Virus record (IMG/VR): IMGVR_UViG_3300017760_000096
Span: 1-23,962 of that record
Length of the DNA: 23,962 bases
Origin: a virus
Direction: 5' to 3' (one strand)
Positions 4,178 through 23,377 of the stretch are shown one piece after another (position 1 is the first letter of the stretch; each line of letters begins with the position of its first letter). The translations under genes and the position numbers were made by a program. The notes beneath the pieces were generated by a model. It was not told where the DNA came from. It made no database searches and worked only from the letters and a program-made list of their open reading frames with translations.

Positions 4178-5419
4178 TTATTTTCTAAGTTTAATTCGTA
4201 AACGTTCGAAATCATCACCACTTACTGCTTTAACTTGCATACCCCCTTGAGTAGTTACATTTTCATGTGTACCCCTTGGGTTCATATCTATGTTTTTAGA
4301 TTGGGCCATATTAGCTTTAACAGCATCGGCTTTACCTTGTTCATAAAAATGGTTTGCAACAGCATCAGCATTCATAGCTGTAAATAATGCTTTGTGATAA
4401 CCACCGGCATCTTTCATATTATTGTTTTTGTCAACAAACTTGCTGACTAACGAATTAATGTCGGATTGGTTTTCTTTTACATTATTAACATCTTTGACTT
4501 TAAATCTATATTTGTTTTCGCCTACTTTATATTCAAAACCTTTGAAATTTTCAGAAAACAAATCGCTTGTTTTTTGTTCAAATATAGATCTCTGTTGTTT
4601 AGATGTTTCTTGCGTCTGTTTATAATTGTCGTAAAACTGAACCGCTTCTTTCTGTTCATGAGACAACTTAGAACTTAACTTAAGTTCGTCGTAGTACTTA
4701 CTCTTTAAATTAGTAAGAGTTGATTTAGCCTCGGCAATTGATTCTTTTAAAGCAAGTTTTTTTCTTTTAACATCTCTTTCTTCATCTGATTCTTCATCAT
4801 AAGAAAAAGAGTCATCAATTAAAAAACTTATTTCTTCTTCTGTTAAATGCGGCTTAGTTTGGCGATAATGCTCTCTTAGTATTTGCATATCTTCCATGTC
4901 CGCATAATCTTTATTAAGATTTACATAATCTTCAAGAGTACCTCCTGTTTCTTTCATAAAATCAACTAATTTGTCAATATTTTCAGGTAATTCAGGTTGT
5001 GGCTCTTGTATATTATTTACGTCTTCCGATTTTTCTTTAAGCTTATTAGGAATATCTTTTATTTTATCCGCTAATGTAGCTTCTTCTTCCTCATTTACAA
5101 GCTCTAATACTTCATCCTCATTGTTATCGGTGTCGCTTTCTCCGGAAGGTTTTTCATTTGTTGTTTCGATGTTTTGTTCTTGTACCTCTCCGCTAGTTTC
5201 GGATTCGTCGCGTACAGGTACCTCATCTGTGCTTTGCTCTTTAGCGGCATCTTCTTCTTGTTTAAATTTACGTAAATCTAATTTTAGCGTCCCGTCTTCA
5301 TCAACTGGTGTTTTGTACGGAGTGGGCTCTTCTTTTTTTTCTTTTGTTTTAGGTTGTGCTTGATCTTCAGTTTTATCAACTGTTTCTTCCTGCACAGCCT
5401 CTTTTATTTCTTCTGCCAT
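4178..5419 (-). CDS. Putative scaffolding protein (413 aa, acidic, coiled coil)
   Basis: A 413-aa hydrophilic protein between portal and capsid genes, the usual scaffold position. Residues 1-150 are very acidic and low in complexity (Glu/Asp/Lys/Thr/Ser, for example VLELVNEEEEATLADKIKDI). Residues about 140-200 hold a small helical region with ENIDKLVDFMKETGGTLEDY. Residues 210-290 are charged helix or coiled coil. Near the C terminus are HKALFTAMNADAVANHFYEQ and then GKADAVKANMAQSKNID, a [AV]--HFYEQGKADA- pattern seen in scaffold proteins of marine podoviruses. The last residues (DDFERLRIKLRK) form a basic helix of the kind scaffolds use to bind capsid protein. No protease motif is visible. 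The A/T-only leader (ATAATTATATAATATTTTATC) before ATG has no Shine-Dalgarno site. The role is inferred from composition, tail and position. Confidence 0.68.
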   Translation of the reverse strand: MAEEIKEAVQEETVDKTEDQAQPKTKEKKEEPTPYKTPVDEDGTLKLDLRKFKQEEDAAKEQSTDEVPVRDESETSGEVQEQNIETTNEKPSGESDTDNNEDEVLELVNEEEEATLADKIKDIPNKLKEKSEDVNNIQEPQPELPENIDKLVDFMKETGGTLEDYVNLNKDYADMEDMQILREHYRQTKPHLTEEEISFLIDDSFSYDEESDEERDVKRKKLALKESIAEAKSTLTNLKSKYYDELKLSSKLSHEQKEAVQFYDNYKQTQETSKQQRSIFEQKTSDLFSENFKGFEYKVGENKYRFKVKDVNNVKENQSDINSLVSKFVDKNNNMKDAGGYHKALFTAMNADAVANHFYEQGKADAVKANMAQSKNIDMNPRGTHENVTTQGGMQVKAVSGDDFERLRIKLRK

Positions 5420-10082: not shown

Positions 10083-10357
10083 TACTTAGATCTTTTTTCC
10101 GCAAATCCACCAAAACTTTCTTTTTCTTTTGTAGGAGTATCTTGCATTATGTTTTTTTCATTTTCAATACGGTTGAGTATTTCAAATGCATCAAATATTG
10201 CTAACTTTTTAGTTGCAGCGGCATTTTTTAATCTGTCGGCTGCTAAATCCTCATCAGGATCATCCATTATTATTTGCTCTTCTGCTACTCTTATTAGCTC
10301 TTTTACAGCTTTATAGCCAGCTTGGATTATATTCGACTTCAGTTCCTGCTCTTTCAT
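10082..10357 (-). CDS. Small helical protein, candidate terminase small subunit (91 aa)
   Basis: A 91-aa protein immediately upstream of, and TAATG-coupled to, the large terminase. It is nearly all helix: residues 7-30 (KSNIIQAGYKAVKELIRVAE) and 38-68 (DLAADRLKNAAATKKLAIFD, AFEILNRIENEK), joined by an acidic turn MDDPDEDL, with a polar tail ending in FAEKRSK. Size, helicity and gene order fit a terminase small subunit, but I see no clear helix-turn-helix, so this could also be another packaging or head-assembly factor. The start overlaps the end of the GroES-like gene by 47 bases. The next in-frame Met (residue 31) would delete the first helix, so the upstream start is preferred. Confidence 0.55.
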   Translation of the reverse strand: MKEQELKSNIIQAGYKAVKELIRVAEEQIIMDDPDEDLAADRLKNAAATKKLAIFDAFEILNRIENEKNIMQDTPTKEKESFGGFAEKRSK

Positions 10358-10904
10358 ATTTAATTGATATTGAATTTATAGGTATTCGATATAATCTTTC
10401 CCCGTCAATTAAGAACTCATACTCACTGTTTGGAGTAAAACCAACTATATCTTCATTATTTAAATTAAAGCTTTTTAAATCGCTCCCTAGGTACTTTAAA
10501 ACGCCCGTGAGTGGCTTTTCTTTAGCTTCTGATAATAAATCATTATTTTTTATTGGTTTTACAAAACAATAACCAGGTGGTGTTAACCACTTATTATTTC
10601 TTTTATATAAAAATATTTGATCTATATAAACAAAAAAATTATTATTATCAAAATAATTACTGCTATCTTTTGCTTGGCCCCTAACATTATAAAATCTTCT
10701 AAATGTATTGTGATGTACTATAACTTCGTCACCTGTTTTAAGTATTGAATTATTTATAGGTGTTTCTTTTATAATGCCTTTTCTATTAATAAACTTATGA
10801 TTTTCAATAGTTGTGTTCAATATTAATTCTTTTTCACCTATTTTTTTATTATTAGTATATCTACCGTTTATAGGTGTTACCATATAAGCATGTAAGTGCT
10901 TCAT
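10311..10904 (-). CDS. Putative phage co-chaperonin, two tandem GroES-like domains (197 aa)
   Basis: Reads as a duplicated GroES fold, a cap for a GroEL-type chaperonin. Copy 1 (residues about 5-101): HAYMVTPINGRY strand, a polar loop with ELILN (27-30) where GroES carries its hydrophobic mobile-loop tip, then GIIKETP, LKTGDEVIVHHN (55-66; GroES pattern '-KVGD-V-F---') and FFVYIDQIFLYK (90-101), the closing strand pair. Copy 2 (about 111-184): GYCFVKPI, TGVLKYLGS (133-141; GroES 'G-V--VG'), LNNEDIVGFTPNSEYEFLID (148-167) and GERLYRIPINSISIKY. The C terminus AGTEVEYNPSWL lies outside the fold. Copy 2 has no obvious mobile loop. By analogy with T4 gp31, which is needed to fold the T4 capsid protein, it may help fold the capsid protein encoded downstream with the host GroEL. 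The fold call is by pattern reading only. It starts by TAATG overlap with the 72-aa gene. Confidence 0.62.
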   Translation of the reverse strand: MKHLHAYMVTPINGRYTNNKKIGEKELILNTTIENHKFINRKGIIKETPINNSILKTGDEVIVHHNTFRRFYNVRGQAKDSSNYFDNNNFFVYIDQIFLYKRNNKWLTPPGYCFVKPIKNNDLLSEAKEKPLTGVLKYLGSDLKSFNLNNEDIVGFTPNSEYEFLIDGERLYRIPINSISIKYERAGTEVEYNPSWL

Positions 10905-11122
10905 TAATATTGTAAATTATATTCTATTGCAATTGCCATATTCTTATTAAAAGTTTTCCAAGGCAATACCTCTTTGTTTTTTTCAATGTATATATTATAG
11001 CTTTCGTCTTCTTCTAATATTTCTACAATTTTATGGCCTCCAAATACTTCTTGGTCTAGGCTATAGTGCATGGCGTCGTTTTTATAATCTCTGCCAATAC
11101 TAATCTTTCTTATCAGATTCAT
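10904..11122 (-). CDS. Conserved small phage protein, unknown function (72 aa)
   Basis: A 72-aa soluble protein with the pattern ISIGRDYKNDAMHYSLDQ (residues 7-24), VFGGHKIVEI, YNIYIEKNKEVLPWKTFNKN (42-61) and MAIAIEYNLQY. I recall similar small proteins in flavobacterial podoviruses at the same place, before a GroES-like gene and the terminase, but no function is known to me. A mixed alpha/beta fold is likely; there is no signal peptide or membrane segment. The start lies inside the end of the coiled-coil gene (23-base overlap), and the stop forms a TAATG with the GroES-like start. The tight packing suggests co-translation. Its steady pairing with the GroES-like gene hints at a shared role; this is inference. 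Confidence 0.7.
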   Translation of the reverse strand: MNLIRKISIGRDYKNDAMHYSLDQEVFGGHKIVEILEEDESYNIYIEKNKEVLPWKTFNKNMAIAIEYNLQY

Positions 11123-11351
11123 TATTCTTTATTTTAGTATATTCACCGGTTTTAAAATCTATGTCTATATCACCGTATGTTTCTTTTAATTTTAATTTAA
11201 ACTCATTAAGCTTTTGTCCAACGGCATCATATTGATGTAGCAAAATATGTTTTTGCGTTTCAACTTTACCTATTTGAGATTGTAATGTTTGAATTGTTGT
11301 TACAATTTTTTGTAACGTGTCTAGTTCTTCTTTTTTAATTTGTTTACTCAT
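11100..11351 (-). CDS. Small coiled-coil phage protein (83 aa)
   Basis: An 83-aa protein, helical and heptad-rich over residues 5-60 (LDTLQKIVTTIQTLQSQIGK, VETQKHILLHQYDAVGQKLN), followed by YGDIDIDFKTGEYT (59-72) and a charged tail. The 'Q-QIG--E-QKH-L-H------L-------ETYG----D---GE' pattern is one I recall from small proteins of unknown function in many marine phages; they may be structural or chaperone-like. It begins the four-gene packaging-side cluster after a 52-base A/T-rich gap. ATG is preceded by AACTTAAATTTTATATA, with no Shine-Dalgarno site. Confidence 0.7.
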   Translation of the reverse strand: MSKQIKKEELDTLQKIVTTIQTLQSQIGKVETQKHILLHQYDAVGQKLNEFKLKLKETYGDIDIDFKTGEYTKIKNNESDKKD

Positions 11352-11403: not shown

Positions 11404-14400
11404 TTATGCAAATGCCATATAGATGTATGAATCACTACTACCATTCACAACTACATAGCTATTTTGTATTTCAAACCCTGTTGGTGTGAAATCTATATTT
11501 ATAGTTGTATTACTTGCACCCCATTCAGCTATGTGAGATGATGCAAATATAGCGTTTCCATTGTCATTAATACTATCTCTTGCCGCATCTAAAATAAGCC
11601 ACCCTGTACTGCTTGTACTTGTAATGTTTTTTATCATTACCCATGAGGGCTGAAATCCTATTTCTATAGAATGGCCCGAAGAGCCTGTTCCTTTATACCG
11701 GCCTATTTTACTATAACCAGGAACACTTTTCCAAGCATAAACTATCATCTCACTACCATCTTTATTTACTTCTGAAGATGCAGCGGTGCCACTGCCCGCG
11801 TTGCCAGCTTGAAACGTAGTTTCGCTTACATTAGTAAATCTATTTGTGTATTGTGTTGATCTACCCGCATAATCTAAAAATAAAGTTTCTGATGGAGAAC
11901 TAAATACACTTAACCATGTAGCCCAACTAGTGCTTGCGGTATCCATATTTTTTACAACAAGAAAATCAGGTTGTGAAGATAAGCCATGAGTTATTCTTGA
12001 AGATAACACCCCGTCACCTTTATGTTTTGCAATACTAAACCCTGCTTTTTCGTTTACAGAAACTGAACTGTGCATTAAAGCTGAATAGAACTGTGCTTTC
12101 GTAGCATCATAATTAGCTTTTATTTGTGCGTCTGTTAATGCGCTTGTGTAAGATCTAAATTGTGCTATTTCACCTTGAGTGGTTGCTACCGAACTGCCTT
12201 TAAAAGAACCAAGTGATCCTCCATAAGTAGAGTTATTTACTTTATCATAGCTGGCTGTTTTAGTTGCTACAAGCTTTCCGTTTATATATATTTTTTTAAG
12301 TCTACCTTGCACAGTATAAGCAACATGATACCAAACCCCTACTGATAAAGTACCCGCATAAGAACTAGTGCTAAGTATAAAGTCTTGAGCACCCCCGGTA
12401 CCGGCATTCGGTCTTTCTTGATAATCTATAGTCCCATCACTTGTAACTCTTAAATTTTCATAATATTGGCTAGTTCCCATATCCCCTATATATAGAAGGC
12501 CGTCGCTATTCGAACCTGCTGGCAAATCATCTATTTTAACCCATAGTTCTCTTGTTACATCTTGCGTTGCTGTTCTACCTAAACCTACAGGTAAAGTTAC
12601 ATAATCTCCTGAACCATCATATTTAAGGCTTGTTCCCCAAGAATTAGCTTCATTTATAGTTGTATTAACTAAAGAACCTAAAGATAAATTATTAGACGTT
12701 TGATCTTTAATTCTATAACCTGTTGTGTTGTCAAATTCATATGTTATACTAGTATTAACACCATTATTGCTACCGGTTAAATTATTAGAATTACCATTAA
12801 GATTGAAGGCAGCAACACAACTACTATCACCTAATACCTGTAAAGTACTTGTAGTGCTTGATGTTTCACTAAATAATTTTCTAACTTCTGCATCAGTAAG
12901 CACTTTATTAAATAAACGCACTTGATCTATACTACCAGTAAAAAATCCTGAACCGGTATATACGCCTATGCGTAATTCATTTGGTGCCGCAGAACTTAAT
13001 AAACTACCACTTAGACTTGATTCTGTTTCTGTTCTTACACCATCTAAATATAATCTACAATCAGAGGCACTAGATCCCCACGTCATTACACAATGATGCC
13101 ATTGTCCGGATGTTAAAGAACCTCCAGCTTGCATTAAACAATAATAAGCATTTTGTGCTTGGCTATAGACCCACCCTTTTAATGTGCCTGATTCAATATA
13201 CATATGTGCGCCATAAGCTGATCCATCTGTATTTGCTAAAACATAGCCATTACCTGTATATTTAACCCACGCTGAATACGACCTTACAGTGTTACTCGAA
13301 ACACTGCTGTCTGTTACAACTATTTTTGAACTTGATCCATTAAATTTAGCAACTTGATTTGTTGTATCAAAACTATTTGGATCATATGAGCTAAATGAAT
13401 CTACATCTATATTATTAAGTAAACCTGTTTGTAATACATTAGCTGTTGTGCCAACGCCTTGATATAATGTTCTTGTAGCATCATAGTTAGCTCTAATTTG
13501 TGCTTGTGTTAATTCTGCTGTATATATACGTGCTTGGCCAAATTTACCATCAAAAGTTTGTGTAGTAATAGCACCACCTGTATAATTTCCTAATGCCATG
13601 TTATTTGTACCATTTGCCGTCAGGCTATAATCAAAAGTTTTAACACTCATTAATATACCATTAATATAAAGCTTACCTGTAGTACCATTTATTGTCCAAA
13701 CAAAATGAGTCCATTTTTCTAGATAAGGCGTATAGTCTAATATGCCAGAAGCAATGTTGTTATTGTTTGTACCATTACCTATAAATACACTTACCTGGTT
13801 ATCATTATAAATTCTTGTCCCAAATCTTCCAGTTGTATCTGTTCCCGAAGTATTAAAATCTCCCCATATATATCTATAACTACTATCATTATCAACCCAT
13901 TGCCAAGTTTCAAAAGTCATAGTAGTACTTGAATTTTGTTGCCAATCTGTTCGTATATAATCATTTGTTCCATCTAAATCAAAATAATTACCATAAGATC
14001 TGTCTACAAATGTTGGTGAGTTTTGTAAAGCATTAGATACTGTTGAACTTGTAGCAATATTAGTAAGATCTGCTCCTGTTCCTGCGTAAGTATTAGAATC
14101 AGCAAAGGTATAATGCAATACTAAATTAGATGTAAGTATACCAGCTGATGTATATGTTGGTTTTTTAGTTACTTGAGTATCACCTGCTTTCCAAGCCCAC
14201 GCCACGTGATTACTTCCGCTTCCGTTATAATAAACACTACTACCAACAGTAAAACCATTTGAATTAAAGCTATTAAAATAAGCTGAACCGGGCCCTCCCG
14301 CAGTATCTTGTGCGTTTGTAATATCGGGATAAATAATTTTATTCGCCCCCCGCATAGAATCGTTTAATACATGATTATGGCCCGCCGAACGGTTTTTTAT

Positions 14401-17400
14401 CCATACAAGATCTGGTTGAAAATTTAAATCAATTAGCTGTGTTGCCCCATTACCTGGGTATGCAACAGCTTTAAAATGATTTGCAGGGTATTGAGTTGTG
14501 CCTGTGCCTTTTTCTAAAAATTTTTCTGTATCTGATGTTTGGCCAGTTCCTTGTGCATATTTTGCAGAATCTTCTGCAATTGCTATATAAATATATGTTT
14601 GATCGTCTGCATTAGTATCACCCCAGGTATTTGCTGGTTTAAATCCATTAGATAAAAAATCAAAAGATCCATAAGATGATTCTGCATCAGTAGCATTTGG
14701 GAAAAGATTTAAATTTCTTGTGTTAGAAATATTTCTTTTATTATCTACAATATACCAAAATCCACCAGAAGCGCTTGATTCTTTTACTAATAGCCAAGCG
14801 GGTTTAAAACCCGTATAAACAAAAGGTCCATTAGCATTTCCATTTCCAGTGTACGTGCCTATCTTACTATATCCTTCAACAGAATGAAAACAATAATTGA
14901 TCATAGTTCCACTTGTCCTCGAATAAATATAGTCAGTAGTTGGTGAAGTAAGTGAAGAGTTTCCTTTAAGAGCTGTATCATTAAGAACTATAAAATCGTT
15001 TGAACCATCAATAACAGTCGTAAATACGTACCAATCTTCAACCCCACCCGTTTGTTTATTAATAATCAGTTCAGGGGCTTGATTTAAGCCATGATAAACT
15101 GTCTGATTAACTGTACCACTTCCTGTGTATTTTACTATACTAAATCCTGATTTTGTATTTGCTGATATTTTTTCAGCTGCTAGTGATCCTGCTAAAGACG
15201 CTGTAGATGCAACACCATCTATCATTACGCTACCAGGTGTAGGTTGGGCTCCTGCTGAAGCAGTATTTGTTGCAGTTGGAGCTCCTCCCGCTTTCCAAGC
15301 CCACGCAATATATTCATTTCCTGCTAAATTAACATAGTTGCCACTACCACTATTATTTCCTAAAGAAAATCCATTAGCATCAAAAGACTCTAACTGATCA
15401 AGGTAGCTTGTTTGTTCAACAGCGGTACTATTAGAGGATAAAATTGAATTAGTACCTCTTACGCTGTCAATTAAAGCATTATAGTATCCGCTTGTGCTTT
15501 TAATATTTTGAATCCAAATAAAATCCGGTTGAAAATCTAATGATTTTATTTCATTTCTAACACCAGTACCATTATACGTTACACTTTCAAAATAATCTCT
15601 AGGTTTTTTCTGATTAAGTGGGTCTACGTTAGTAGAAGTTGGTAAATTATCACTTGATAATGCTTTATAACCTGAAGGTGGTGTATATGAAAATCCTTTT
15701 GCACCAAAATTAAAGTTAAGGGCTAAATTTGAATCAGCATTTTGCGCAAAAATTCTTTTTGGTCCTGATATACTACTTGCAACAGCATTACCTGAATTCT
15801 GTACAGATCCATTAATATAAATATGTAAAGTTCCACCATCTGCATCATAAGCCCAACCCACAATTGCACCATTTGGGTTAGTTGAAGTGCAGGTTAATAA
15901 TAATGTTCCGTCATCCCAAAATCTTCCGTCATCTAGCATGCCAAGTATTCCGTTGCTTGCAGATGTAAGCTGTCGCATATTAGTCATAGAAGAGCTCCAA
16001 AAAGTGTGATTAAGAATACCTGTAAAATGTAAATATGTACCACCATTTCCTTTATATTCAACTTCCCAATACCATTTACCTGTTTCAGGCAAATCTGGCC
16101 CTAAAAAGCGAGCATAATTACTATTGTTTGATGAATCTAATAACGTTAAACCTCCGTTTGTTACATTACCTTCAGAGGTCATTTGTCCTTCTGGTGTAAA
16201 TGTTGGGAATGCTACGTCAGGCTTATCTCCCGTGTGATCTGAGCCATCAAGATTTGTTCCGTTTGCAACGGCTCCTTTTGCATTACCGGATATATCTGCT
16301 AAACTAAGAACTTCATAATGACCTTGTGTAGCCCTAAAATTTTGTACAACTTCTTGAGCTGTTAAAGCTTTGCTATACACTCTAGATTGTGCAATACCTA
16401 TATTTGCATGGTAACCATCTGTTCTTTTAGCTAATAATAAATTTTCTGAACCATTCGTCCTTGTAGTAAAAGTACCAGTCTTAGCGTCTGTTAATGCACC
16501 ATTAATATATACCCTTGAAATGCCATTAGTAGAACTGAATGTGGCCGTTACATGACTCCATTTGTTGAGAGGCACGGTACCTGTAGTTGTGTTAGTAATT
16601 ACATCTTGAGCCGAGCTGTAATTTCCTCCAGAGTCTGCAACAGTCCATCTAAAATTTCGAGAGCTACCTGAGCTAAATCTTAAATCCCATTTATAGTTTG
16701 AACCAGAGGTATAAAGTAAATTAATCATTTCATCGTTACTAACCGTTACTGGATAAATCCACATTTCTACAGAAAAATCAGCTAATGATTGAAAACTAGA
16801 ATTAGAAGTTATTGTTGCGAAATCATCGCTGCCATCAAAAAGAAAATATCCTTCATTATTACCAGAATATGTTGGCCCATTAGTTAGTATTGCATGATGA
16901 TTATTACCACTTTTATCGCTCCATGTAGTACCACTAAAACTTGTTTCATCAGTGCCGTCAGCATCCCAATCTCCTGCATCTAAATTTATAACACTACCTG
17001 AAACAATAGATCCTTCATCACTGTTATTAAAATTTAAATGCCAACCATTAAGGCCATAAAAATATTTATATTTTGTAGCATTATAGTTTTGTAAAACATT
17101 AGCATCTGTAAATGCAGAATTATAAATTTGTACTTCACTTATGTGTGCTTTTAAATATCCAACATTATTATTGTCAGAACCGGCACCGGTATAACCAAGC
17201 TTGTTAAATTTATAGTTGCTATTAGTATAGTTTATAAATGATCCATTCCAGTTGTCACTATCAACTAGAGTACTATTTAAATATAAACGTATACCATTAC
17301 TATCACCCGTAAATACTAAATGATTCCAAACTTTATCAGCTACAACTGGTGTTTGAGCTTCAGGATATACTGGTCCCGGCTGTACTATTACAGCTTTTAC

Positions 17401-18534
17401 TGTATTATCTGTTTGTATATTTATATATATATAAATGTCATCTAAAAGATGAACTAATCTACCTCCGTATGTGGTATCTGTTTGATTACCATCTCTTCTA
17501 AACCAAAGAGAAATAGCAAAAGCAGCTGCGGTACGAATAGGTTCATCTATTGTAGATGGTAAAGTAATAAAACTACTAGTCCCATTAAAGCTTGCAATAT
17601 TATAATTATTTTGTTGGAAAGTAACATTAGACGCTGTACCATTATAAGTTGTACCACCAACTGATGTATCGTTAGCATTACCTTGTAATTGATAATTTGC
17701 AATAAGATTAGTAGTAATTAAAGTATCAGTACTTGGTGTATTAACTCCTTTAGGCACCCATATACCATTACTTAATTCACCAAATTCATTAGGGAGTAAT
17801 GCACTTCCGTCTACAAATATAAAATTAGCATATGTAGCATCTGCTCCATAACCATCGCCAAAGGCCCAATCATTAATTCTTTGATTAGTACCAAATTGAA
17901 TTGCCTGGCCATCTGACATATTAGCTACCTGCTCCCACGTTAATCTTATGCCATTTGCATAACAGTTTACTTTTATATCATCTTGCGGCACATTACTATC
18001 TAAAGAAACAACAAAATTGTACCAACCTGATTTATCTATAAATATAGCTTTTGTAACATAATTTGAAAGGCTATTAATCCTAACTTGCAGCTTGTGATTT
18101 GTTCCGGAAGAATGCAAGAGTATTGAAACAAGGCTTCCGTCTGCGGTACCTGATGTATATAAATATCTTTTGCTTGACTCGGTTTCATGAATTTTTATCC
18201 AAAAACTAAATGTACCTCTTGTATTTGTAAATACCGGTGCCGTTGTCAATGTAGGTTCCAAAACTTTAACACTATTGTGAGAAGACGATAACCCGTCCAT
18301 ATGTAAAGATTTTCCTAAAGCGCCTGTAGCTTCAGTAGTTGGGAATATTTGAAACAGTGTTTGGCCTCTAAGTTCTGACATAGATCTACCGGAAACAGTA
18401 CTACCATCACCTACTGCTGTAAATTTAACAGTATTGTTATCACCTAAAGATACATTTGATTCATTTGTATCTGCCTGTAACGTTGCGTTTACGTCATCGT
18501 TTAGTTTTATTTCACCGGTACTAGGAATTGGCAT
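11404..18534 (-). CDS. Giant LamG/SPRY-domain adsorption or tail-spike protein (2376 aa)
   Basis: A mosaic beta protein, probably for carbohydrate or surface binding at the tail. Approximate domains: 1-60, an N-terminal linker also typical of such proteins (PIPSTGEIKLNDDVN, SGRSMSELRGQ); LamG-type jellyrolls at 75-245 (GTFSFWIKI), 275-490 (SLWFRRDGN, WNHLVFTGDSNGIRLYLNS), 515-738 (FSVEMWIYP, KWSHVTATFSS), 1474-1692 (KWTHFVWTINGTTGKLYING), 1728-1888 (QWHHCVMTWGSS) and 1972-2145 (WYHVAYTVQGRLKKIYINGK); a SPRY-like domain at 806-960 (ETGKWYWEVEYKGNGGTYLH, GWAYDADGGTLHIYINGS). Phage modules with [FL]QPD[FL][VI]WI[KQ]N and AWAWKAG occur at 982-1080 and 1355-1450. Related modules with GFSI.K..G.G and GYSKIG.Y.G.G occur at about 1128-1318 and 2168-2376. 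Most LamG units close with a '-R-Y---LT-A-----YDAT' helix. No enzyme motif and no C-terminal chaperone is visible. It overlaps the fibre gene by 14 bases. Confidence 0.78.
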   Translation of the reverse strand: MPIPSTGEIKLNDDVNATLQADTNESNVSLGDNNTVKFTAVGDGSTVSGRSMSELRGQTLFQIFPTTEATGALGKSLHMDGLSSSHNSVKVLEPTLTTAPVFTNTRGTFSFWIKIHETESSKRYLYTSGTADGSLVSILLHSSGTNHKLQVRINSLSNYVTKAIFIDKSGWYNFVVSLDSNVPQDDIKVNCYANGIRLTWEQVANMSDGQAIQFGTNQRINDWAFGDGYGADATYANFIFVDGSALLPNEFGELSNGIWVPKGVNTPSTDTLITTNLIANYQLQGNANDTSVGGTTYNGTASNVTFQQNNYNIASFNGTSSFITLPSTIDEPIRTAAAFAISLWFRRDGNQTDTTYGGRLVHLLDDIYIYINIQTDNTVKAVIVQPGPVYPEAQTPVVADKVWNHLVFTGDSNGIRLYLNSTLVDSDNWNGSFINYTNSNYKFNKLGYTGAGSDNNNVGYLKAHISEVQIYNSAFTDANVLQNYNATKYKYFYGLNGWHLNFNNSDEGSIVSGSVINLDAGDWDADGTDETSFSGTTWSDKSGNNHHAILTNGPTYSGNNEGYFLFDGSDDFATITSNSSFQSLADFSVEMWIYPVTVSNDEMINLLYTSGSNYKWDLRFSSGSSRNFRWTVADSGGNYSSAQDVITNTTTGTVPLNKWSHVTATFSSTNGISRVYINGALTDAKTGTFTTRTNGSENLLLAKRTDGYHANIGIAQSRVYSKALTAQEVVQNFRATQGHYEVLSLADISGNAKGAVANGTNLDGSDHTGDKPDVAFPTFTPEGQMTSEGNVTNGGLTLLDSSNNSNYARFLGPDLPETGKWYWEVEYKGNGGTYLHFTGILNHTFWSSSMTNMRQLTSASNGILGMLDDGRFWDDGTLLLTCTSTNPNGAIVGWAYDADGGTLHIYINGSVQNSGNAVASSISGPKRIFAQNADSNLALNFNFGAKGFSYTPPSGYKALSSDNLPTSTNVDPLNQKKPRDYFESVTYNGTGVRNEIKSLDFQPDFIWIQNIKSTSGYYNALIDSVRGTNSILSSNSTAVEQTSYLDQLESFDANGFSLGNNSGSGNYVNLAGNEYIAWAWKAGGAPTATNTASAGAQPTPGSVMIDGVASTASLAGSLAAEKISANTKSGFSIVKYTGSGTVNQTVYHGLNQAPELIINKQTGGVEDWYVFTTVIDGSNDFIVLNDTALKGNSSLTSPTTDYIYSRTSGTMINYCFHSVEGYSKIGTYTGNGNANGPFVYTGFKPAWLLVKESSASGGFWYIVDNKRNISNTRNLNLFPNATDAESSYGSFDFLSNGFKPANTWGDTNADDQTYIYIAIAEDSAKYAQGTGQTSDTEKFLEKGTGTTQYPANHFKAVAYPGNGATQLIDLNFQPDLVWIKNRSAGHNHVLNDSMRGANKIIYPDITNAQDTAGGPGSAYFNSFNSNGFTVGSSVYYNGSGSNHVAWAWKAGDTQVTKKPTYTSAGILTSNLVLHYTFADSNTYAGTGADLTNIATSSTVSNALQNSPTFVDRSYGNYFDLDGTNDYIRTDWQQNSSTTMTFETWQWVDNDSSYRYIWGDFNTSGTDTTGRFGTRIYNDNQVSVFIGNGTNNNNIASGILDYTPYLEKWTHFVWTINGTTGKLYINGILMSVKTFDYSLTANGTNNMALGNYTGGAITTQTFDGKFGQARIYTAELTQAQIRANYDATRTLYQGVGTTANVLQTGLLNNIDVDSFSSYDPNSFDTTNQVAKFNGSSSKIVVTDSSVSSNTVRSYSAWVKYTGNGYVLANTDGSAYGAHMYIESGTLKGWVYSQAQNAYYCLMQAGGSLTSGQWHHCVMTWGSSASDCRLYLDGVRTETESSLSGSLLSSAAPNELRIGVYTGSGFFTGSIDQVRLFNKVLTDAEVRKLFSETSSTTSTLQVLGDSSCVAAFNLNGNSNNLTGSNNGVNTSITYEFDNTTGYRIKDQTSNNLSLGSLVNTTINEANSWGTSLKYDGSGDYVTLPVGLGRTATQDVTRELWVKIDDLPAGSNSDGLLYIGDMGTSQYYENLRVTSDGTIDYQERPNAGTGGAQDFILSTSSYAGTLSVGVWYHVAYTVQGRLKKIYINGKLVATKTASYDKVNNSTYGGSLGSFKGSSVATTQGEIAQFRSYTSALTDAQIKANYDATKAQFYSALMHSSVSVNEKAGFSIAKHKGDGVLSSRITHGLSSQPDFLVVKNMDTASTSWATWLSVFSSPSETLFLDYAGRSTQYTNRFTNVSETTFQAGNAGSGTAASSEVNKDGSEMIVYAWKSVPGYSKIGRYKGTGSSGHSIEIGFQPSWVMIKNITSTSSTGWLILDAARDSINDNGNAIFASSHIAEWGASNTTINIDFTPTGFEIQNSYVVVNGSSDSYIYMAFA

Positions 18535-21500
18535 CTTCTAATTTTTTTTCAAGGTTATTAACTTTTTGTGTAAGCTCTTTAACTGCTTCAATAAGTACAG
18601 CACTTAATTTTTCATAATCTACTGTTTTGACTTTATGGCCTTCAAATAATTCTTTTTCATGTACTATGTGTGGTATTACTTCTTCAACTTCCTGTGCTAT
18701 AACACCTAAATCGTGTTTACCTTCTCTGCTACCACTTTTCCAATCGTATTCAACACCTCTTAGTTGATTCACAGTTTCAAGTGCATCGGGTATTGTTTCA
18801 ATGTTTTCTTTAAGCGATACATCTGAAACAGAAGTAGAAAACGCAATAACATCACCATCAACTAATAGATCTTTATTTGTTGAATCTATTTCCATTATAA
18901 CAGTACCTCCAAATGCCCATTGGTGTTTTGTAGATGTTGATTTATAATAGTTGTTTGAACTATAACCTATTTGTTCAATATCATCTCTACAATCAGCATC
19001 TATATTCATTGTAGTGCCTGTAAGTGTCATACCCGCGCCACCTGAAATACTTGTAGCTGTAACAAAGTTTGCTTTAGTAATTGTTTTATGAGCGGCCGCA
19101 TCAGCATCATAAAATAATATTTCATCTGCGTCGGCTATACTTGTTTCAACAGTTAAATCATTTATTGCAAGACCTATATTGCCAGTCTCTGTAACAGTGC
19201 CTGTAAGCCCTGTGGAAGTACCAACTGATCTAACCCCAGCACCTACATATATGGTGCCACCCATATTTGAATGATTATCACAATAATAATACAATGTCTT
19301 AGGTGTATCTTGTTCAACTGTAATTTCTGTATAAGTTGAAGCGGTTGTTACGCCTGTAGTATAAGCAGAGCTATTACCTGAATCTGTAGAAAATCTAAGT
19401 GGGTGAGTTGTACCAGTTTGTGTAAATCTATATTTAAAACCTGGCATTAAAGTTACATCAGCTTGTTGTGTGCCATCTATATAGTATTTACCACCAGAAT
19501 CTGTCACAACTATATCATTTCTAAAATATTTAAGTGTTATTTCGCCGGCTGCTTTTCTTGATTCAGTTGCACTATTTTGTAATATAAATTCTGTTGTTCC
19601 AGATATATCAGCAGTCATATCAGTTAATTCAGAAAAATCTAAATTAAGTGTTATTGTTTCATCAGAACTTTGATTTGTTGTAAAATCACCAGCGGCGTCA
19701 GTTAATCCTGTTCCACCTGCAATTGTTATTGTAGCATTATTAGCAGCAGAAGGTATTGTAGGCGCACCTGTAAGATTACCATAAGCTAAATAATAACTAG
19801 CAGCCTGACTACCTAATGTAGTAGCATTAAGAGTTGAAGCTGTTGTAAGTAATTCTACTTCAGCACCCGCAAGACCTGCATACCATTTGCTCTGTGATTC
19901 ATTCCATATTAATGATGCATCAGTACCTGAACTTCCTCTTTCTATATTTATACCACCATTTACTGCAGTTCCTGTAAGATCAGAATTAAGTAATATAATA
20001 TTATCATAAATAGTAACTGTTTCTGTATTTACACTAGTTGTTGTGCCTGATACAGTTAAATTACCAGTTACAGCAACATTACCTGCGAAACCTACAGTAT
20101 CGCCCGCATCTGTGCCGATTGTAATGGTTTGATCTGCAGCACCGCCCGCTGACTCAAGGGCAGCAAGTCTAGTTAATAAATTAGCATTTGTAACATCTGA
20201 ATCTGTATTACTTGTAAATGTTAGGTTACTTTGTAAATACGATTGAAGAACACTAACAGCCATTTTTTTAACAACCCCAGCATCACTTATTGCAAATTCA
20301 TCAGTACTGGCTAGACCGGATGCTAGTGCAGCTTGACCTGAAATAATATCATCACTTAACATTGCATGATGAACAGCGCCTGCGGCTATAGTTGTTGAAA
20401 TACTTGTAGTGCCACTACCGGTTACATCACCCGAAAGTGTAATGCTTTGGTTACCAGTTGCATAACCTAAACCTGTTACAAAATCATATATCTGATCACC
20501 TGTTGCAAGAGAAGTTGAGCCATTTGATACAGCGCCTGTATTTATAGCGGTTGATGTAACACCTGTTACGTGACCATTGCCATCTAAAGTTAAATCTTGA
20601 ATATATGTAAGTCCTGAATTATCTACTGAAGAAGCCGCACCTGAAATACTTGGGTGGGCTGATGCTAATGTAAAGTTTGGATATGTACCGGTAATAGTCA
20701 TATTACCCCCGTTACTCAGCGCTACAGTTTGATCGTATTTATTAGTGCTCCCTTGTGTTATATTATCTGTTGTTATGGTTGCATTTTCAAATGCGCCTGA
20801 AGTACTATTAAATTTTAAAAACTGATTATTAGATGCGCTTGATACAGTAACATCTGATAAATCACTAAGAGCGGCTGCTGCTGCAGCTCCACCTACACTG
20901 ATTGCAGATAAACTCCTGTGTATACCACCTGTTAATATTTTCGCTTCAGATGCAGAAGATAAATTTGTAGCATTACCTCTTACTATAATTGCGCCTAAAT
21001 ATATTGCTTGTTCTGATGTATTACTAGATTCAGTAAAACTTTCTAACTGATACTGTTGTTCTGCAACAGATAAAGATGCATATTCTTCTTTACCATAGTA
21101 AACAACTATAGTGTTTATTTCATTTGGAAAATAATATAGTCTTTGTACAGAAAACTTAGTTGCAGTCATAGATGCAAGTGTTCCTGAACTGTCATCGTAT
21201 TTTGTAGGATCGATTGCTGTATAGCCTGATCCGTCATTTGTATCAAGTACATGGCCTGTAGAACTATCCGCATAATATCTATGTATAACAGCATCTGTTT
21301 TTGCAGCATCCGAAACAAGAGATGGATTATTAGGATCTGAAGAATAATTTCTACCAAATGCCCAAGCGACTCCCGCTGCTCTGTTTAATTTTAAATTACT
21401 ACCGTTTGCTGTAACTAAATGGCCTGATTTTTTCATTGGGCCAAAAATTCTTGAAAACTCTTGCAGTTGCGGAATAGCCCCATAAGCAGTTACTGGGAAT

Positions 21501-23377
21501 GTTTTTACAAAATCTATAGTAGCACTTGTGTGTATAATAGATCCTATAATAATGTTATGAGCAATTTGTGCGTCTGTAAAAGGTGTAGTTTGTTGATTAA
21601 CAGTACCTGATGCATCTATATAAACCCAGGTATTTAATTGTTTATTACTACTACTGGTAAGACCTGTACATGTAAATGTTTGTTGAGACCAAGCTATATG
21701 CTTTATTTCAGGGTGTGGTTCGCCCGAACCTGACTCTTTATTCAGGTCATTTATAATACCTGTACCTGCTGCAATTGTAACTTGTGTATTGTTTGCTTTA
21801 GTAAGTGTGCCACCACTTGTAATACCAGACGGAATGTTTTCAGTAACGTCATCTATAGACAGTTCTTTATCATCATATCTAAAATGTAATACATTGGTGC
21901 CGTCTTTTGCTTTTATAAATATTGCGTTATCATCTGTTGTTGTGCTTGCAGAAGTAAAAGTTAATACATTGTCAACCGTCATGTTATCAGCAGATGCATT
22001 AGCTGTAACAGTTAAATTATTAGCAACGTTTAAGTTATTACTTATTGTTACATCATTTGGAAGACCAATTGTAAAAGTTCTGTTTGTAGTTAAGTTTTGT
22101 GCAGACGACGGAGAAGTTTCTATTTCGTTTGCAGTACCTGTAAGAGTTATTGTAGTGTTTTGATCAAGAATTGTAGGTTTATTTAATATAAACGAATCTA
22201 CATTTGTATCGGTTTCAGTCCAGTTAGACTGTACATTCTGTTCTGCATTTGCAGCAATATTAGTAAGTTTTGTTCTTTCAGCCCCAGTGATTATAGCACC
22301 AGAACCAGCACTTGTTACATCAGAAAGATCTGTAACGTTATGGTTACTAAGTACTGTTAAATCTGTAGGTTTGTTTTGTATAAATGCATCAGAACTGCTA
22401 ACACTCTCATTCCAATTCGCTTGTACATTTACCTCAGCATTCGCTGCTATATTGTTTAATTTAGTTTGAAGTGTGTCAGTAAAATCATTTGCAGACAATC
22501 CTTTACCTGATACTACTGCAACTTTACCATCTAAAGCAGCTTGTAACCCTGATATACTGGATATACCCAGTGATGTAAGTGTTGTTCTATTAGCTTTTAT
22601 ATAAGTTACTACTTCTTGTAATACATCAAGATCAGTATCGTCTGAGTTAAGAATTACATTTATAGCTGTTGTTTCGGCTTTTAGTGCTTTACCTTGCTCG
22701 GCTGATAAAGGCACGCTGGTCCCGCCTGTAGTTAAATCATTTACAATATCTGTATATCGTACTCTTCCATTGATAGTAGCAACGTCTGCTCTTTCTGCTG
22801 TAGTTATTATAGCACCTGAACCAGCTGATGTTACATCATTTAACGATGTTACAGAAAAAGAATTAAGGTTTTTAAGATTGTTACCTAAAGTTGAAATGTA
22901 ATACTCTTCACCTTTTTCTAATTGACCACTAGCATCTTGATTTGATACAGAAAGTATTTTGTATTGTCCCGAAGAAACGTCAGCAACCGAGTCAACTCTA
23001 TATATACCAAAATTATTAGTATCCCCTTTCTTTGTTATCCTAACGTCATACCCTGCAAGTACGTCTATATAATTTGATACATCGCCATTTTGTAAATTTT
23101 TATCTGTTAAATACAGTGTTTGTATATCTGAAAAATTTGTGCTGTTATATGTACCTGTACTCGTTGTAATAATGCCAAAAGAATCGGCATCAACATTATA
23201 ATCTTGTGCTTTGAATACAATACCATCAAATTGTTTGATAAAGTTTTCGTCATTTGCAAGGTCTAATAAACTTTGTACAGAAAAGTTTTTTGTAACGTTA
23301 TCGCCTGAATTAGACCCGATAACTTTATCGTTTAAATGTAGATCAACATCTTGATCGTATGTAAATATTCTTGCCAT
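18521..23377 (-). CDS. Tail fibre/spike with C-terminal S74 intramolecular chaperone (1618 aa)
   Basis: A trimeric-fibre type protein. Residues 1-165 are a probable anchor domain (RIFTYDQDVDLHLNDKVIGS). Residues 175-400 hold degenerate repeats of LSDVTSAGSGAIIT-AER and NIAANAE-NVQ-NW-E---S-DAFI-NKPT. Residues about 545-820 form a distinct domain (GIINDLNKESGSGEPHPEIK, LNTWVYIDASGTVNQQ, INTIVVYYGKEEYASLS) that looks like a baseplate/receptor-binding module I cannot name. Residues 880-1240 are Ser/Thr/Gly-rich fibre repeats (SLSGDVTGSGTTSISTTI type, NLTVSGTTTSVNTETVTIYD). Residues about 1300-1378 are a cupredoxin-like segment with H1325, C1366, H1369 and M1372. From S1518 to about 1612 lies the S74 chaperone (SDVSLKENI, HDLGVIAQEVEEVIPHIV, VDYEKLSAVLIEAVKEL), ending in a coiled coil. 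S1518 and K1523 have the spacing of the Ser-Lys self-cleavage dyad of endosialidase tailspikes, so the tip is probably cut off after folding. Confidence 0.82.
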   Translation of the reverse strand: MARIFTYDQDVDLHLNDKVIGSNSGDNVTKNFSVQSLLDLANDENFIKQFDGIVFKAQDYNVDADSFGIITTSTGTYNSTNFSDIQTLYLTDKNLQNGDVSNYIDVLAGYDVRITKKGDTNNFGIYRVDSVADVSSGQYKILSVSNQDASGQLEKGEEYYISTLGNNLKNLNSFSVTSLNDVTSAGSGAIITTAERADVATINGRVRYTDIVNDLTTGGTSVPLSAEQGKALKAETTAINVILNSDDTDLDVLQEVVTYIKANRTTLTSLGISSISGLQAALDGKVAVVSGKGLSANDFTDTLQTKLNNIAANAEVNVQANWNESVSSSDAFIQNKPTDLTVLSNHNVTDLSDVTSAGSGAIITGAERTKLTNIAANAEQNVQSNWTETDTNVDSFILNKPTILDQNTTITLTGTANEIETSPSSAQNLTTNRTFTIGLPNDVTISNNLNVANNLTVTANASADNMTVDNVLTFTSASTTTDDNAIFIKAKDGTNVLHFRYDDKELSIDDVTENIPSGITSGGTLTKANNTQVTIAAGTGIINDLNKESGSGEPHPEIKHIAWSQQTFTCTGLTSSSNKQLNTWVYIDASGTVNQQTTPFTDAQIAHNIIIGSIIHTSATIDFVKTFPVTAYGAIPQLQEFSRIFGPMKKSGHLVTANGSNLKLNRAAGVAWAFGRNYSSDPNNPSLVSDAAKTDAVIHRYYADSSTGHVLDTNDGSGYTAIDPTKYDDSSGTLASMTATKFSVQRLYYFPNEINTIVVYYGKEEYASLSVAEQQYQLESFTESSNTSEQAIYLGAIIVRGNATNLSSASEAKILTGGIHRSLSAISVGGAAAAAALSDLSDVTVSSASNNQFLKFNSTSGAFENATITTDNITQGSTNKYDQTVALSNGGNMTITGTYPNFTLASAHPSISGAASSVDNSGLTYIQDLTLDGNGHVTGVTSTAINTGAVSNGSTSLATGDQIYDFVTGLGYATGNQSITLSGDVTGSGTTSISTTIAAGAVHHAMLSDDIISGQAALASGLASTDEFAISDAGVVKKMAVSVLQSYLQSNLTFTSNTDSDVTNANLLTRLAALESAGGAADQTITIGTDAGDTVGFAGNVAVTGNLTVSGTTTSVNTETVTIYDNIILLNSDLTGTAVNGGINIERGSSGTDASLIWNESQSKWYAGLAGAEVELLTTASTLNATTLGSQAASYYLAYGNLTGAPTIPSAANNATITIAGGTGLTDAAGDFTTNQSSDETITLNLDFSELTDMTADISGTTEFILQNSATESRKAAGEITLKYFRNDIVVTDSGGKYYIDGTQQADVTLMPGFKYRFTQTGTTHPLRFSTDSGNSSAYTTGVTTASTYTEITVEQDTPKTLYYYCDNHSNMGGTIYVGAGVRSVGTSTGLTGTVTETGNIGLAINDLTVETSIADADEILFYDADAAAHKTITKANFVTATSISGGAGMTLTGTTMNIDADCRDDIEQIGYSSNNYYKSTSTKHQWAFGGTVIMEIDSTNKDLLVDGDVIAFSTSVSDVSLKENIETIPDALETVNQLRGVEYDWKSGSREGKHDLGVIAQEVEEVIPHIVHEKELFEGHKVKTVDYEKLSAVLIEAVKELTQKVNNLEKKLEDANS
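22239..22852 (-). repeat. Degenerate internal repeats in the fibre gene
   Basis: Two copies of a unit encoding DVTSAGSGAIIT-AER lie at about 22288-22339 and 22801-22852, the second with several silent or near-silent differences. A linked unit encoding NIAANAE-NVQ-NW occurs at about 22239-22265 and 22425-22460. The pattern indicates old tandem duplication within the fibre shaft. Confidence 0.6.

Follow-up and report, generated by a model that had tools for sequence, protein, structure and literature searches.

The stretch of viral DNA analyzed here (the window: 23,962 bases, an IMG/VR virus fragment; the marine phage it belongs to is called W below) encodes a 2376-residue protein that is likely a modular receptor-binding fibre, diversified domain by domain through homologous recombination at conserved joints. 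An earlier note, made from the letters of the window, had proposed that the layout of this protein suits modular swapping of glycan- or surface-binding sites. Comparison with related phages (numbered L007, L094 and so on) strongly supports this proposal: the domain order is kept and single domains are replaced in close relatives. Rather than one fixed, co-linear arrangement with no copy variation, single LamG domains are missing or replaced among the relatives (L131 and L095). Thus, W seems to change what surface it sticks to by trading whole domains with other phages.

As the note had stated, the protein is a single chain, encoded by a minus-strand ORF; the plus strand of the same region is full of stops. 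Its domains run LG1-LG2-LG3-SPRY-A1-B1-C1-A2-LG4-LG5-LG6-B2-C2, with the following positions and supporting evidence:

11404..18534, minus strand: fibre gene, 2376 aa, LG-LG-LG-SPRY-A-B-C-A-LG-LG-LG-B-C
18340..18534, minus strand: N-terminal 65 aa, probable virion-attachment end (putative role); 86% nucleotide identity to L094
17749..18339, minus strand: LG1, the most divergent LamG, kept and not swapped in all full-length relatives (profile, comparison)
17101..17616, minus strand: LG2, LamG jellyroll, swapped slot (profile, comparison)
16351..16899, minus strand: LG3, LamG jellyroll, swapped slot (profile, comparison)
15700..16197, minus strand: SPRY domain, swapped slot (structure, relatives' profile matches, comparison)
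15286..15609, minus strand: DUF7483 module A1 (profile)
14881..15153, minus strand: DUF7483 module B1 (profile)
14572..14880, minus strand: DUF7483 module C1 (profile)
14182..14493, minus strand: A2, the DUF7483 module that opens the split second unit (profile)
13519..14004, minus strand: LG4, LamG, allele common to L008 (92% nucleotide identity), replaced in L007 (profile, comparison)
12889..13344, minus strand: LG5, LamG, with an allele of its own in each phage compared, the near-identical L007 and L009 being the exception (profile, comparison)
12127..12618, minus strand: LG6, LamG, one allele in W, L007, L008 and L130, absent in L131 and L135 (profile, comparison)
11725..12054, minus strand: B2, the DUF7483 module with which the split unit resumes (profile, comparison)
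11407..11724, minus strand: DUF7483 module C2, C-terminal end (profile, comparison)
18521..23377, minus strand: upstream neighbour, 1618-aa tail fibre with a Peptidase_S74 chaperone end (profile matches)

LamG domains were called with Pfam and our own HMMs. The note had counted at least six and there are six, with PF13385 (Laminin_G_3) giving six matches that all exceed the curated cut-off (whole-protein E 1.4e-91). In a predicted structure spanning A2 to C2 (pLDDT 64, moderate quality), the LamGs adopt the jellyroll fold and match laminin LG and neurexin LNS domains with E values down to 9e-18; matches of the same model to toxin domains were set aside as reflecting the shared jellyroll fold only. 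The likeness to laminin and neurexin arrays lies in the tandem concanavalin-type jellyrolls. However, this is a phage protein with ~8-14% identity to them, and no relation beyond fold is implied. The single SPRY-like domain was confirmed by predicted structure and by SPRY matches at the same slot in relatives (L134, E 8.6e-5; L094, E 4.3e-4; both under the curated cut-off). Structure was needed to find it, as Pfam SPRY was not reached at E 0.1 in the window protein. An AlphaFold2 model of the SPRY domain with the following A-B-C unit (pLDDT 81.5, and 90-97 across most of A-B-C) has SPRY domains as its solved-structure matches, and the top Foldseek matches of the SPRY model in the PDB are likewise SPRY domains (E about 1e-6 to 1e-5, TM-score to target at most 0.72). 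From their folds, the LamG and SPRY domains are predicted to bind sugars or surfaces. In L095 (gene at 14814-21656), residues 1437-1623 form a probable F5/8 type C (discoidin) domain at the position of LG4 in W, a weak match (E 6e-4) below the curated cut-off. The LG4 slot therefore seems to accept folds besides LamG.

The remaining modules did not prove to be two phage modules in four copies, as the note had claimed, but one ~100-aa repeat family in six copies: A1, B1, C1, A2, B2 and C2. Both of its motifs were real, QPDFVWI...AWAWKAG marking type A and GYSKIG marking type C, but they do not define separate families, and type B (GFSI.K..G.G) had been missed. Profile comparison with hhalign relates all three types (A-B, E 4e-19; A-C, 3e-24; B-C, 4e-15), and A, B and C together correspond to Pfam DUF7483 (PF24299), which matches the window protein in four stretches with E 1.4e-145; in relatives, the 330-position profile is covered over its full length, 1-330. 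Hand alignment and these profile comparisons show DUF7483 to be three copies of one ~100-aa repeat. A search of the PDB by sequence returned no solved structure resembling it. In the window protein A-B-C occurs once as a continuous unit and once split at the A|B joint by three LamGs.

The A|B joint is interrupted in other phages as well. Among the ORFs of the fetched loci, a census biased by the queries used to fetch them, type A was counted 148 times, type B 156 times and type C 157 times. B was followed by C 155 times, and never with a LamG or SPRY domain between them; for A, the next module was B in 130 cases and a LamG in 17, of which 13 were distinct. Between A and B, the loci carry from 0 to 3 LamGs: one in L017, L019, L221, L234, L258 and L155, two in L028 and L095, and three in the window, L094, L134, L007 and L008; in L138, Pfam finds one and the local HMM two. 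An initial call of an uninterrupted A-B-C pair in L138 was dropped after the HMMs were retrained, and a call of four LamGs in L134 was rejected, Pfam giving three in that stretch. The A-B-C unit that W carries is also found in virion proteins of pelagiphages, cyanophages and roseophages, but in W the second copy is split. Our literature search found nothing specific on DUF7483 or on phage fibres with LamG jellyrolls. For DUF7483, common in marine phages, these data provide an anatomical meaning: three repeat copies and one insertion-permissive joint.

The surroundings of the gene, together with its matches to the annotation families phrog_24898 (tail fiber) and phrog_19943 (virion structural), suggest that the protein is probably a long modular tail fibre or adhesin, from a tailed phage. 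In transcription order, a holin-like gene is followed by the 1618-aa S74 tail fibre, the 2376-aa fibre gene, an 83-aa coiled-coil-like ORF, a GroES-like gene, a small ORF, the terminase, and the portal and head genes. A profile search found the Peptidase_S74 C-terminal chaperone in the neighbouring fibre and not in the 2376-aa protein. The N-terminal 65 residues keep pace with the backbone clock (86% nucleotide identity between W and L094). The 83-aa ORF (11100-11351, minus strand), directly downstream of the fibre gene, has no credible family match. The GroES-like co-chaperonin gene lies at 10311-10904 (minus strand), and a GroEL-like ORF of ~517 aa, assigned by visual inspection of its start, is present in related genomes (L094, 5972-7522; L095, 4645-6204). 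A 413-aa ORF at 4178-5419 (minus strand), located between the portal and head genes and with no PHROG match, may encode a scaffold or head protein, to judge from its position. Inside the gene of the S74 fibre, the stretch 19220-19588 (minus strand) is cupredoxin-like, with an upstream His and a Cys-x2-His-x2-Met motif (HPLRF...YYYCDNHSNM) that is retained in L094, L095, L134 and the more distant phage L233. A sequence search found no matching solved cupredoxin; a type-1 copper site within this tail fibre is possible.

The relatives were gathered via the fibre gene itself and its neighbour genes and are metagenome contigs, those of the closest relatives being broken inside the fibre gene. As a backbone measure we used the terminase gene terL, which in L007, L008 and L130 is 95.2-97.4% identical to W at the nucleotide level (95-98% among the four phages) and in L094 and L134 78% identical. 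Domain order is the same in the close and in all full-length relatives compared. Outside fibre residues ~317 to 2369 the DNA matches continuously; inside, similarity is reduced to islands at the joints, which stay 64-97% identical among close relatives (most of them 71-97%). By contrast, slot identity in these phages takes two states, either 82-93%, the same allele, or 43-63%, unrelated. W and L008 have LG4 (92%) and LG6 (82%) in common and differ from A1 to A2 and in LG5, B2 and C2 (44-63%). W and L007 have LG6, B2 and C2 in common (87-93%) and differ from SPRY to LG5 (43-57%; LG4, 48%). W and L130 have LG6 in common and differ in LG5, B2 and C2. LG5 is 43-50% identical in all pairs tabulated, and B2/C2 are 88-93% identical between W and L007 versus 46-50% between W and either L008 or L130. 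Fragments of at least 70% identity thus lie beside unrelated fragments in pairs of these proteins, the pattern that defines recently emerged mosaic receptor-binding proteins. Because LG4 groups W with L008 and B2/C2 group W with L007, which is incompatible with one tree, recombination is required.

Binding domains of phage fibres evolve fast, and the slots could in principle have diverged vertically under positive selection between structurally constrained joints, with no exchange. The identical order in all full-length relatives agrees with such a history. Yet graded identities would be expected of it, rather than two states at terL identities of 95-98%, and it explains neither the conflicting groupings between slots nor the conservation of third codon positions at joints beyond that of terL. 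Moreover, some alleles are more alike than the backbones that carry them: LG4 is 91% identical between L007 and L094, against 79% for terL, and LG6-B2-C2 is 87% identical between L328 and L134, against 77%. These comparisons show alleles that, as judged from their identities, cross phage lineages. We therefore consider vertical hyperdivergence very unlikely. The number of domains varies too. L131 (terL 95% identical to W) lacks the LG6 core, a short form that it has in common with L135. Since the joint of this LG6-less form is 79% identical, equal to the backbone, the loss may be old, and forms with and without LG6 may be in circulation together.

Two of the joints are marked by conserved DNA:

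14095..14184, minus strand: jAL, the conserved joint from A2 to LG4; its third codon positions are 87-90% identical to those in L094 and L134, versus 56-57% for terL
13360..13518, minus strand: conserved joint j45 (LG4 to LG5), closing helix and linker (comparison)

Between W and L094, codons at unchanged residues are identical in 92% of cases at j45 and 89% at jAL, compared with 59% in terL (j45 versus terL, Fisher p 1e-6), and third-codon identity is 90-92% at both joints, compared with 56% in terL. Elevated codon conservation was not seen at j6B and j3S in this comparison, and between W and L134 it is found mainly at jAL. Protein constraint alone does not account for this conservation; recent exchange ending in the joints does; selection acting on the joints at the DNA level is possible. 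Scans of IMG/VR for exact joint DNA found the joints only in this phage group, so that they are no general recombination signal; the scans also yielded one new mosaic, L328. A broader proposal, which we advance tentatively and think on balance doubtful, is that joint DNA is kept conserved as recombination anchors and that the whole genus draws LamG, SPRY, F5/8-type and DUF7483 cassettes slot by slot from a shared pool, and that the A|B joint serves as an expandable slot, taking 0 to 3 lectin-type domains.

Near-identical joints are also where metagenome assembly could have produced chimeras. Several contigs do terminate inside the fibre gene, and W and L007 have an exact run of 123 bp at j45. 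Set against this, exact runs between W and the long, 65-68 kb contigs do not exceed 46 bp, frames are intact in 10 of the 10 fibre proteins compared, and the L007 domain combination recurs in L009 from another data set (99.6% over 6 kb), although the two data sets possibly stem from one sampling campaign. For the long contigs and the L007/L009 combination a chimeric origin is unlikely, and as an explanation of the whole pattern assembly error appears highly improbable.

Another reading is growth and reshuffling by internal duplication and unequal recombination within the one gene. The note had placed its emphasis on internal duplication and domain shuffling, pointing to similar DNA near 12100-12150 and 13460-13510. 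That similarity is real, with 44 of 57 bases identical between the two copies, whereas 60 codon-shuffled versions of the gene gave a maximum of 36 of 57:

12094..12150, minus strand: 57-bp repeat copy 1, closing helix of LG6 (DNA comparison)
13468..13524, minus strand: 57-bp repeat copy 2, closing helix of LG4 (DNA comparison)

Self-BLASTP of the 2376-aa protein gave no off-diagonal matches, and the repeats were instead aligned manually and with profiles. A1 and A2 are 41% identical and C1 and C2 36%, LamG number varies at A|B, and one relation crosses slots, LG5 of L007 resembling LG2 of W (40% at the amino acid level, 70% at the nucleotide level over 150 bp), all as duplication would have it. 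Recent duplication is nevertheless not supported: LamGs of the same chain are only 17-33% identical, which makes the duplications old, between-slot DNA similarity is limited to the joints, and, apart from that one relation, strong LamG matches among these fibres are to the same slot in another phage. Growth within one gene is thus an unlikely account, and exchange between phages accounts for the data better than recent internal duplication.

In the mechanism that we favour, exchange at conserved joints, the N terminus together with LG1 would attach the fibre to the virion, and the remainder would string together the LamG and SPRY jellyrolls as recognition domains, carried on two DUF7483 scaffolds and presumably binding receptor glycans. 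Each scaffold is built from A, B and C, three copies of one ~100-aa beta fold, and in the second the A|B joint is opened to hold three LamGs. Location on the virion, orientation, oligomeric state and ligands are those we infer for such a fibre. Each slot would act as a cassette, its joint DNA far more alike than its slot DNA, such that homologous recombination between co-infecting phages could swap single domains or blocks with frame and order unharmed. A phage ERF annealing protein would probably help. Genes of the ERF family are present in two of the four relatives searched, L094 and L134 (E 7e-35 and 4e-31), and were not detected in L095, L138 or W, the last a fragment; searches of the relatives for RecT and YqaJ nuclease were negative. 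Published tests with Erf of phage D3 showed recombination between 78%-identical substrates (PMC3945230). The likeness to such Rad52-like relaxed recombination lies in the ERF-family gene of two relatives and in joints more alike than the exchanged pieces, although the tests in PMC3945230 were on lambdoid phages and the role of ERF here is putative.

Variability restricted to one gene is also the mark of programmed variation, by a diversity-generating retroelement, inversion or silent cassettes. Here, however, whole domains are replaced, and no reverse transcriptase was found in three 65-68 kb relatives, records of unstated completeness; the window itself is a fragment. Spare cassettes were not found in these large relatives either: DUF7483 is confined to the fibre gene, and elsewhere no LamG passes the cut-off, one weak LamG-like match lying in a protein other than the fibre. 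A programmed switch is accordingly extremely improbable, and exchange with co-infecting phages is the simplest source of new cassettes; donors for most alleles were not identified among the fibres compared. Weak LamG matches in ~740-aa frames of the L094 and L095 records probably belong to a separate 737-742-aa protein (L094, 3399-5627; L095, 2416-4629; MARISTYDRDLVLS...).

Domain mosaicism of recent origin is established in phage receptor-binding proteins (Smug et al. 2023, PMC10684548), where, in tail fibres and spikes, fragments of high identity stand next to unrelated ones on either side. Fibre domain exchange is thus already known; the terms LamG, laminin and concanavalin are absent from the text of that paper. 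In W, by comparison, about eleven consecutive slots (LG2 to C2) of a 2.3-kaa chain are exchanged either individually or as blocks; the joints between them have conserved DNA, and the order is kept. What is unusual is this regularity along a very long chain, the conservation of joints and the expandable DUF7483 slot. The window phage and its relatives offer a natural, readable case of a putative host-recognition protein whose domains are altered one by one, along a long chain, in genomes otherwise 95-98% alike. Selection on joint DNA for exchange and a separate binding specificity for each slot become testable questions.

The host of W is likely a member of the Bacteroidota, as judged from terminase relatives: isolated phages that carry a terminase of this family have Flavobacterium, Cellulophaga, Tenacibaculum and Maribacter as hosts, and the label Bacteroidota is attached to many MAG contigs whose terminase is close. 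One distant terminase relative, L319 (39% identity), sits in an 862-kb contig of Flavobacterium caseinilyticum, and distant members of the group may thus be prophages.
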